A program made the translations under genes and the position numbers. Positions 20,791 to 29,192 of a DNA stretch of 29,192 bases are shown here, one piece after another; position 1 is the first letter of the stretch, and the number at the start of each line of letters is the position of its first letter. Origin of the DNA: a virus. The notes beneath the pieces are model-generated. The model saw nothing but the letters and a program-made list of their open reading frames with translations. It had not been told where the DNA came from and did not search any database. The stretch lies in the IMG/VR virus record IMGVR_UViG_3300033183_000244, positions 1 to 29,192 of that record. One strand, given 5' to 3'.

Positions 20791-21201
20791 TCATTCCCCA
20801 ACTGTCACTTCACCATTAGCCCATGACAAGGTAATGCTGCCAGTGTTGCCGGCATCCTCTTTCTTGTCACGCAGCCCGAAAGGCTGAGACCGTGCGAACG
20901 TCCATTTCAAGCTATCTATCTCAAGACGTCTGCGCTGTACCTCAGCATTCACCACCTTTGCATCGAGCTCTGGTGGCAGCGGTGAAGTAGCCAAATCAAT
21001 AATCTTATCGCCGTAATATTCAGCCTGCAGTATGCGGCCACGGTGATACATTTCATAGAGCTCATCATCAGCTTGGACAGCCCTGGTCACAGAGCGGTAG
21101 CTGGGCATAGCTTCATCTTTACAGATCTGTACCAATGTCTCACCACTGGCCAGCCTGTTAGCTATGTTTTCCATTACTGCTTTTGTGACTTTCTTTGCCA
21201 T
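20791..21201 (-). CDS. Terminase small subunit
   Basis: A 136-residue protein starting at the ATG at 21199-21201, with GGAG 6 bases upstream. A longer frame to 21282 exists but would run through a terminator hairpin and has no good ribosome site. The N-terminus KVTKAVMENIANRLASGETLVQICKDEAMPSYRSVTRAV holds a helix-turn-helix of the small terminase DNA-binding type. A helical oligomerisation part follows (MYHRGRILQAEYYGDKIIDLA) and the C-terminus has WTFARSQPFGLRDKK. It recognises the packaging site and activates the large subunit. It starts the late operon seen here. Confidence 0.88.
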   Translation of the reverse strand: MAKKVTKAVMENIANRLASGETLVQICKDEAMPSYRSVTRAVQADDELYEMYHRGRILQAEYYGDKIIDLATSPLPPELDAKVVNAEVQRRRLEIDSLKWTFARSQPFGLRDKKEDAGNTGSITLSWANGEVTVGE

Positions 21202-21210
21202 TCTTTCTCC

Positions 21211-21245
21211 AAAAAGCGCAACCCCGGCGTTGGAACCGGGGTTGC
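21211..21245 (-). terminator. Rho-independent terminator before the small terminase gene
   Basis: On the minus strand a 10-bp perfect stem GCAACCCCGG / CCGGGGTTGC with an 8-base loop is followed by GC and TTTTT. It lies 9 bases before the small terminase ATG and its ribosome site GGAG. It would end early transcripts arriving from 24.2 kb, so late genes need antitermination or a promoter very close by. Confidence 0.8.
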
Positions 21246-21314
21246 TAGGGTGTCGCGGAAGGAAGCTTTTATGAGCAATCACACTACATCTAGTGCAATT
21301 GTAGTTAAATATTA

Positions 21315-21719
21315 CTAGATTTCGCGGCGTTCGTCACCTGCCATTCGATAATACAATCGCAATAAAGCATCTTTATATGCTGCCTTTACCCTTCTAGGAT
21401 CGTGCAGTCCCAGCATTCTAGCTATCTTAACCCACTGCGCTCCACGCTGTCTAAATGCAGCGCTATGTGCAATAGCCCAAACAAGCTTTCTATCTTCTTC
21501 TGGCATCAGTGGCGTTAGCTCTAGCGCCTTGTCGAACTGGCTGATTTGCTCAGAGGTTGGCTTCAGTATTGTTTCACCAACTTGCGTCCATCCGTAACCA
21601 TGCCAATCCAGGGGATAATCTGGCCATGAAGAGAGCTTCGCTCGGCGAACAGCAGCTGGCAGTCTTCTGTCTGTCTCTGCTGCTTCTAAGAACAAACTAT
21701 GCAATTGGCTAACGTCCAT
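21315..21719 (-). CDS. DUF6362-like helix-turn-helix protein
   Basis: A 134-residue protein starting at the ATG with GGAG 7 bases upstream; a GTG just ahead is possible. The pattern (LFLEAAETDRRLPAAVRRAKLSSWPDY, PTSEQISQFDKALEL, EDRKLVWAIAHSAAFRQRGAQWVKIARMLGLHDPRRVKAAY) follows DUF6362-type phage proteins, which end in a sigma-like helix-turn-helix. It is the last gene of the early operon and lies 30 bases after the stem-loop region that precedes late genes, so a role as late-gene activator or antiterminator is conceivable but unproven. It overlaps the 127-residue gene by 11 bases. Confidence 0.65.
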   Translation of the reverse strand: MDVSQLHSLFLEAAETDRRLPAAVRRAKLSSWPDYPLDWHGYGWTQVGETILKPTSEQISQFDKALELTPLMPEEDRKLVWAIAHSAAFRQRGAQWVKIARMLGLHDPRRVKAAYKDALLRLYYRMAGDERREI

Positions 21720-22092
21720 CACTGAGCTCCATCTTTTTAATGAAATAGCGCCTCTCGAACTCGCTCATGTTGCTGAAGGCTCTGACGATATCTTTATACC
21801 CTTCGACACTGTGAGAGCGCCTGAGACGCTTTAAAACGCGATCTAGACGGTATCCCCATTCATCAACCTTGCGGCGGTCAATGGCACGGCGATATGCAGG
21901 CTTGGTATGCTTGGCTGTTTTTTGAATCAGCTGCTGTACGTCAGCTAGCTTTACATAGCTAGCTATGCTTTCTTTATATAAGCTATTTATAGGTAAGCTA
22001 GCTGTATCAATAGCTGTATCGCTAGCTATATAGCTAGCTTGCGTAGCTAGCTGCCCCTCAGCAGGCCTGCTGATTTTATCGTCTTTGCTCAT
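21709..22092 (-). CDS. Unknown protein with palindrome-rich 5' coding region
   Basis: A 127-residue protein with GGGGGG about 9 bases upstream. The N-terminal 45 residues (many Ala, Ser, Ile, Thr) are low-complexity and are encoded by the GCTAGC repeat cluster. The C-terminal part is basic and helical (KPAYRRAIDRRKVDEWGYRLDRVLKRLRRS, then MSEFERRYFIKKM), which could bind DNA. I do not recognise a family. A gene whose own coding DNA holds the origin is known for lambda O, and this might be a similar initiator, but that is inference. Confidence 0.6.
   Translation of the reverse strand: MSKDDKISRPAEGQLATQASYIASDTAIDTASLPINSLYKESIASYVKLADVQQLIQKTAKHTKPAYRRAIDRRKVDEWGYRLDRVLKRLRRSHSVEGYKDIVRAFSNMSEFERRYFIKKMELSDGR
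21943..22052. repeat. Cluster of GCTAGC palindromes, iteron-like
   Basis: Six exact GCTAGC hexamers occur in about 110 bases, at 21944, 21958, 21997, 22021, 22033 and 22046, mostly as AGCTAGCT, plus half sites at 21981 and 22011. Spacings are 14, 39, 24, 12 and 13 bases, close to multiples of 12-13. It lies in the 5' part of the 127-residue gene. The hexamer is a perfect palindrome, so the whole could be a protein-binding array such as a replication origin or a partition site. Confidence 0.6.
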
Positions 22093-22108
22093 TCCGTCAA
22101 CCCCCCTG

Positions 22109-27921: not shown

Positions 27922-29076
27922 TTATACACCCCCAAAGATTGCAGACGCAGCAGCTGACCGTGCCTTGTCCTGTTTGCCAACATTGCGAATGTAGTGGCCA
28001 TACTGTCTGTATGTAAAGCCGCTGTCGCTGTGCCCCATCAGGCTCGCAACCTCTGACCAATCTTCGCCCAAGGCTGACAGCTGAATACTAGCGAAGAAGT
28101 GACGCATATCACCCCATAGCATCCGCTCTATGCCTGCGCGCTTGCTGGCGCGCTCTATCAATTCACGCAGCGTTTTCTTCTGCTTTGGCAGGCCAGCTGC
28201 AGTGGCGAACGCATAGTCTTCATCTCGGCTATGCTTGCTCTGCATCTTCAGCTGGCGCAGTAGCTGCACAGTCTCAGCTGGTATAGGCACAATACGGAAG
28301 CCGCGCTTGGTCTTTGGCGCCTTGATGTTTATGCCCCGGCCATGCGCCACTGCCTGCCGCACATGAACCTCACCGGCTGCTAAATCTACAGCGCCCCATG
28401 TCAGTGCGCGCAATTCGCCCTGACGCATACCAGTAGAAAGGGCAGTGATGACCATCGCCCGGCTAACCAAGCTTTCACCCTCAAGCCCTGCAGATATCAG
28501 CTGCTGGATTGTCTCAGGCTGTATACGGGGTGCCCGGTCAGATATATCAGCTGACATACCTAAGCTAACTTTATCGAGCGGGTTGATGGCGACCCAGCCT
28601 TTTGCTTGGCAGTGGTTCAGCATCATCTTCAAGCCTTTAAAGCGCTTGTCTGCAGTATGCTTGCTGTTGCAAGCCGCCTTGATAGAGCGAACAAAAACAG
28701 CTGACAAATCCCCGGCGTTCTCCTGGCGCACAATAGACAGATCATGTTTGGCAAACGGCTTGCCATCAATTTTAATCTTTAGCGCAAAGCGCACAGCGCG
28801 CTCGATATCTTCGAAGTGTGACCGGCTGATATCGCCGTCAGTCACGCGCTCTTCTTGACGCGCCAGAAAGTTAGCAGCCGCATCTTTGACCAGCTGCAGT
28901 TTGACAGGCTGGGCAATCAGGCCAAGTGTATGCTTGGCCAGCATTTCATCAGCTGCCTGACGCGCTTCTGCTTCGGTGGCGTAGTTGCCGTAAGTGGGGG
29001 TCGATATGCCTACGCGGCGCGCATCAATAACCCAGTGTTTACGGCGATTTTCAAATCTTACCTTTAATGGTTTCAT
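27922..29076 (-). CDS. int: Tyrosine integrase
   Basis: A 384-residue site-specific recombinase starting at the ATG with GGGGG 6-7 bases upstream; a TTG 12 codons before it is less likely. Residues 1-60 hold the AP2-like arm-binding domain (KVRFENRRKHWVIDARRVGI), about 60-175 the SAM-like core-binding domain, and 185-384 the catalytic part: R218 (GMRQGELRAL), K257 (KAPKTKRGFRIVPI), R325 (GDMRH), H349 (MGHS) and Y359 (QYGHY). The first His of HxxR is replaced by Gly322. It would integrate and, with the excisionase-like protein, excise the phage. It converges with the plus-strand operon and follows a partial gene by 13 bases. Confidence 0.92.
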   Translation of the reverse strand: MKPLKVRFENRRKHWVIDARRVGISTPTYGNYATEAEARQAADEMLAKHTLGLIAQPVKLQLVKDAAANFLARQEERVTDGDISRSHFEDIERAVRFALKIKIDGKPFAKHDLSIVRQENAGDLSAVFVRSIKAACNSKHTADKRFKGLKMMLNHCQAKGWVAINPLDKVSLGMSADISDRAPRIQPETIQQLISAGLEGESLVSRAMVITALSTGMRQGELRALTWGAVDLAAGEVHVRQAVAHGRGINIKAPKTKRGFRIVPIPAETVQLLRQLKMQSKHSRDEDYAFATAAGLPKQKKTLRELIERASKRAGIERMLWGDMRHFFASIQLSALGEDWSEVASLMGHSDSGFTYRQYGHYIRNVGKQDKARSAAASAIFGGV

Positions 29077-29089
29077 GTTCACCCCCAAG

Positions 29090-29192
29090 TTACGCAGTAT
29101 GCGCGTCAACAATTTTTTCCAAGTCGTATGTTAACTGCAAATCGTCAGCAAAAGCGTCAACATATCCGACCAAACCGCCTTTAATCAGGCCG
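29090..29192 (-). CDS. 3' end of an unknown gene upstream of the integrase
   Basis: An open frame enters from the right edge and ends at the TAA at 29090-29092, leaving 33 codons (KGGLVGYVDAFADDLQLTYD ... KIVDAHTA). The sequence reads like protein, and the stop is 13 bases from the integrase ATG and its ribosome site, so the two are probably cotranscribed. Nothing can be said on function. Confidence 0.45.
   Translation of the reverse strand, partial: GLIKGGLVGYVDAFADDLQLTYDLEKIVDAHTA

Follow-up and report, generated by a model that had tools for sequence, protein, structure and literature searches.

The replication module of the phage P4 alpha type consists of a primase-helicase with a C-terminal origin-binding domain and adjacent iterons. 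In the P22/SPP1 type, the pac site lies inside or near the small terminase gene. Lambdoid origins are found in the middle of the O gene and contain four to six iterons together with an AT-rich tract; they need transcriptional activation, and additional iterons lengthen the O protein by extra residues (PMC7466680). The locus described here, an array of short palindromes within a small gene of unassigned family, can be compared with each of these systems.

The DNA analyzed, referred to as the window, is 29,192 bp long and corresponds to a virus record of IMG/VR, which may be a fragment. Its source is an uncultured temperate podovirus-like phage, probably marine, whose portal protein finds its nearest counterparts, at 55-60% identity, in pelagiphages, HTVC010P among them. 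The window encodes an integrase (27922-29112); around 24.2 kb, a CI-like and a Cro-like gene diverge, and a long leftward operon comprises, in order, the early genes, the gene P0001, a DUF6362 gene, the small and large terminases (TerS and TerL), the portal, and the tail genes. P0001 and the array it contains are situated where the early genes give way to the late ones; DUF6362 follows downstream, as does TerS, whose gene lies about 0.75 kb from the array (Table 1). The initial annotation had noticed that the window lacks a replicase gene, and indeed none of the five replication families AAA_25, DnaB_C, IstB, Phage_rep_O, and DNA_pol_A was found in this possibly fragmentary record. The check on GC skew that it proposed was also run: the skew turns at the Cro/CI divergence and is uninformative on the origin, because it follows the coding strand. 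A strong terminator-like hairpin (21218-21245, minus strand; 11 pairs, GC-rich, followed by a T-run) is located where the small terminase ORF begins, which suggests that the true start of this gene is further downstream.

Table 1. Coordinates of the features at the P0001 locus of the window.
Feature	Position	Strand	Remarks
P0001	21709..22092	-	127 aa; host gene of the array; candidate initiator; no known family
Palindrome array	21943..22052	-	six AGCTAGCT-type palindromes and degenerate half-sites; proposed origin iterons (relatives, synonymous depletion, codon shuffle)
AT-rich gap within the array	21966..21995	.	30 bp; 23% GC (array 37%, window 50%)
14-bp palindrome CAGCAGGCCTGCTG	22059..22072	.	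directly after the -10
Promoter-like TTGACG-16-TAAAAT	22073..22100	-	overlaps the P0001 start codon
DUF6362 gene	21315..21722	-	next downstream of P0001
Small terminase (Sf6-type)	20791..21282	-	rival candidate array reader

The six GCTAGC palindromes reported by the initial annotation are present, starting at 21944, 21958, 21997, 22021, 22033, and 22046 and spanning 21944-22051, far above what is expected by chance. The gaps between successive starts are 14, 39, 24, 12, and 13 bp, and degenerate half-sites at 21981 (AGCTATTTA) and 22009 (ATAGCT) complete a register of about 12 bp; TRF likewise identifies a 12-bp unit in 4.8 copies at 21996-22053. The whole window contains 24 GCTAGC against 12.3 expected, a number reached by none of 100 shuffles. 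The local repeat count at the array was matched by 0 of 281 background blocks, with no other 130-bp stretch coming close, and the Poisson probability of the cluster is about 6e-10. When the protein was kept fixed and its codons were redrawn at the usage of the window, 0.64 copies were expected against the six seen (0/5000); when P0001's own codons were shuffled, the expectation was 4.4 (P=0.02), and the same shuffle gave P=0.002 for the AGCTA/TAGCT half-sites. The clustering therefore exceeds what the encoded amino acids impose. The array occupies codons 14-50 of P0001, and its palindromes are read in two frames, four times as GCT AGC (Ala-Ser) and twice as G CTA GC (Leu-Ala). Its AT-rich gap is possibly an unwinding element. 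An Rfam search gave no match, and an unbiased 7-mer scan, of low sensitivity, ranked this locus in several relatives but left the window's own array outside the top six. GCTAGC triplets are common in IMG/VR at large and unrelated to this array; dense tandem repeats containing GCTAGC occur in the unrelated viral contigs L087 (10751), L158 (3402; TTGCTAGCAAGT-like units), and L082 (5398; 16-bp units).

The AlphaFold model of P0001 shows a disordered N-terminus (residues 1-44) followed by a confident core of five helices (49-124). Among P0001-like genes it is this C-terminal core, of about 75 aa, that is conserved, while the N-terminus is not. Searches of Pfam, PHROGs, and the PDB returned no credible match and no recognisable initiator or helix-turn-helix (HTH) homology; the absence of Phage_rep_O homology places the gene outside the O family. 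A structure search with VIA-align reached a best Z of only 2.4, and the BFVD match was a single unnamed viral protein of 138 aa (E 4e-5). No cultured phage relatives were found for P0001, DUF6362, or the CI-like repressor, and a DUF6362 search of genome contigs gave no convincing prophage. The fold of DUF6362 had no credible match either. The highest-probability PDB match of its model, with a probability of only 0.30 and E 5.7, was a sigma-factor chain in a transcription initiation complex, and the resemblance is weak. A role of DUF6362 as a late-gene regulator is possible.

Homologues of DUF6362 led to more than 100 loci, with a P0001-like gene upstream in those examined. In lineage A (L001, L002, L209, L226/L228/L229, L235, the L213 group, L227, and L249/L252), AGCTAGCT-type sites are kept across about seven diverged relatives in spite of varying protein length and sequence, and the word is retained in two reading frames. 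The array was thus found to persist while the protein changes, as the initial annotation had proposed to check in related phages. The copies are degenerate in L226/L228/L229, and mainly the two outer ones are kept in L209 and L249/L252. Synonymous changes were scarce in the array: 1/41 against 17/52 in the rest of the gene between the window and L001 (P=0.0001), 1/39 against 22/68 in the core for L228/L229 (P=0.0001), 0/30 against 15/54 in the core for L001/L002, and 0/58 against 7/75 in the core for L222/L225; the depletion was not significant in some pairs, such as L213/L220 and L213/L227. With few synonymous differences in the N-terminal part and many in the core, the constraint in much of lineage A acts on the DNA rather than on the peptide. 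The proposal that a DNA function dictates the protein gains support from this depletion, from the codon-shuffle test, and from the disordered N-terminus.

Other P0001 lineages carry other words at the place of the array, namely AGGATAATCCT-type repeats in lineages B and C, GACATGTC repeats in lineage D, and TCTWAGA/GATATATC repeats in lineage E. L318 has TAGAAGCTTCTA palindromes with six AAGCTT cores in 127 bp (L318:740-905); these lie within one gene, flanked by an N-terminal segment of a distinct kind and by a C-terminal core like that of P0001. For most of these arrays, the local repeat count was reached by no background block taken from the same locus, the exceptions to this kind of result being L058, L209, and L186. 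Relatives that keep the protein and lack the array, which the initial annotation regarded as evidence against its proposal, occur in part: in lineage F the P0001 core persists behind a short N-terminus, but the gene carries no array; at most there is a weak upstream cluster of ATCTTTG, seen in a single record.

A search with TerS retrieved phages that have the same terminase family and do not carry P0001. At 19 such loci, the gene of an AAA_25 primase-helicase is immediately followed by an array of 8-11 iteron copies (GTGAGG, GTGTGG, or CTGTGG), which lies about 0.9 kb upstream of TerS; the array of L303 combines six CTGTGG with three GTGTGG. The word tracks the C-terminal 75 aa of the helicase, with identities of 0.81 within and 0.55 between word groups (0/2000 permutations, in a test that treats loci without correction for shared ancestry). 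It does not track TerS (P=0.13), whose identities reach 0.98 between phages with different words. In L281, L297, L284, and their relatives, GGTGAGG, GGTGTGG, and CTGTGG are found 0-260 bp after the AAA_25 gene in phages whose terminases are near-identical, and these three words match three types of helicase C-terminus. Independently of the permutation test, L316 and L317 have both flanks 94-98% identical at the DNA level, while the array and the helicase C-terminus have been replaced together, as one cassette (L316:3079-3486, L317:3079-3471), the words being GTGCGC and CCGGTTC. The TerS proteins of this pair are 97% identical despite entirely different arrays. DUF6362, 98.5% identical between the two, is ruled out as the reader of their arrays. 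It follows from the tracking of the word and from this exchange that, among relatives sharing this terminase family, the slot's array belongs to the replication protein.

Six records devoid of P0001-type genes contain the AAA_25 helicase, which was found in none of the P0001 records searched; the window, unlike its same-slot relatives, has no AAA_25 gene upstream of the array. Given this distribution, P0001 with its embedded array may constitute an origin module alternative to a primase-helicase with iterons, and P0001 is the remaining conserved candidate for the reader in lineage A. It is therefore considered somewhat probable that the array of the window represents replication-origin iterons inside a small replication gene, the evidence for coupling coming from the helicase-type relatives. 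The initial annotation had suggested an origin within an initiator gene; owing to the same-slot comparison, this is the best-supported reading of the locus, although P0001 lacks recognisable initiator homology and the origin of the window stays putative. The initiator, most likely P0001 acting through its conserved C-terminal core, would bind the AGCTA/TAGCT half-sites about one helical turn apart, and the DNA would open at the AT-rich gap or nearby, after which host helicase and polymerase would be recruited. Transcription from the promoter-like element would cross the array, in a way similar to transcriptional activation at ori-lambda.

Control of transcription is unlikely, though the most probable of the alternatives. 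According to it, TTGAC[AG]-16-TA[AG]AAT would serve as a promoter, either of the late genes or of the operon, and the palindromes downstream of it would be operators, through which P0001 regulates itself or another regulator acts, or else a structured leader RNA, in control of the genes from DUF6362 and TerS to the late ones. The location at the early/late junction fits this explanation, as does a nested RNA fold mildly better than those of shuffles (z -1.6 to -2.7). The promoter-like element, moreover, lies just upstream of the array in all AGCTAGCT relatives, where it overlaps the beginning of the P0001-like gene throughout lineage A, with a near-fixed geometry: the spacing differs, at 18 bp, in one subclade (L249/L252), and in 11 of 16 sequences the -35 starts 48 bp ahead of the first AGCTAG. 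It is mostly followed by an inverted repeat and then by the array. This repeat, however, varies in sequence between relatives (CAGCA..TGCTG, CGCTG..CAGCG, TTGCC..GGCAA), most of which have another one than the window after the -10, and is missing in L227 and L249/252. Against the same explanation, lineages B-E have arrays without the promoter-like element, and in the helicase relatives the slot follows the helicase C-terminus. Four GCTAGC palindromes are also found in L310 (2070-2177, about 1.93-1.82 kb upstream of TerS), where two of them lie on either side of a TTGACA that precedes a 110-aa gene, an arrangement that looks like operators around a promoter.

It is rather improbable that the array serves as a packaging site of the pac or cosB-like kind, to which TerS would bind about 0.75 kb upstream of its own gene to start packaging. 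One TerS family is found in nearly all array-bearing P0001 lineages checked, and wrapping of the DNA around a TerS ring would be compatible with a spacing of about 12 bp. The arrayless lineage F, whose TerS is unrelated, shares the early genes of the window but not TerS, TerL, or portal, the whole late module being different, so that in this comparison the array travels with TerS and the late module as well. Lineage F also has an array in its own TerS gene: six to eight GCAACC repeats (L009:6991-7160, L013:6621-6790, L230:4761-4930, and others) lie in the linker between the two HTH-like parts of this unrelated small terminase and are possibly a pac site inside the terminase gene. Packaging was nevertheless lowered from its place as the working model because of the exchange between L316 and L317, with TerS nearly unchanged, and because of the independence of word and TerS in the helicase-type relatives.

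There is very little probability that the array has no function in cis and is a low-complexity linker expanded by replication slippage in the coding sequence. A period of 12 bp, that is four codons, and a flexible, disordered N-terminus tolerant of growth would agree with such an origin, against which stand the two reading frames, the synonymous depletion in independent clades, the codon-shuffle test, and the palindromic words of several lineages. A centromere for partition or plasmid maintenance, to which the clustering of palindromes would be suited, is the least probable explanation of all, as the phage has an integrase and the scanned subset of window proteins included none recognisable as a partition protein.

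Returning to the origin reading, a broader and more tentative version of it can be proposed, in which P0001 would stand for a new family of small phage initiators, and their N-terminal disorder would be a by-product of the origin that the gene contains. One slot between early genes and terminase would hold interchangeable modules, either P0001 with embedded palindromes or a primase-helicase with downstream iterons, and the recognition words would turn over quickly together with their reader. If true, this would give a group of uncultured phages that lack recognisable replication genes an origin and a candidate family of initiators, and it would be a clear example of how a DNA site can shape the stretch of protein that it encodes. 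The relatives would offer, in GGTGAGG, GGTGTGG, and CTGTGG with three helicase C-terminal types, a naturally occurring set of readers paired with their words, from which rules of DNA recognition could be read out, L316 and L317 being a ready-made specificity pair.

Compared with the known systems, the locus resembles the lambda ori-in-O arrangement in several respects: its repeated sites fall inside the coding sequence of an early-operon gene downstream of Cro, changes in copy number lengthen the protein, and transcription is expected across the array (PMC7466680). The AT-rich gap may be a counterpart of the lambda tract. Unlike in lambda, where iterons of 18-19 bp are located mid-gene, the palindromes of the window measure 8-12 bp, are spaced by about 12 bp, and occupy the 5' end of the gene. 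The window is not classified as a lambdoid-origin member because P0001 is no O homologue and no IstB-type loader was found in this possibly fragmentary record. With the pac sites of the P22/SPP1 type it shares the closeness to TerS and the repeats in coding DNA, from which it differs in that the word of the array is independent of the TerS sequence in relatives. Unlike the P4 alpha type, the window and the searched P0001 records have no AAA_25 helicase, and the window's array lies inside a gene. As in that type, however, the AAA_25 primase-helicase of the relatives pairs a variable C-terminus with a matching array immediately after it, at the place taken by P0001 in the window.
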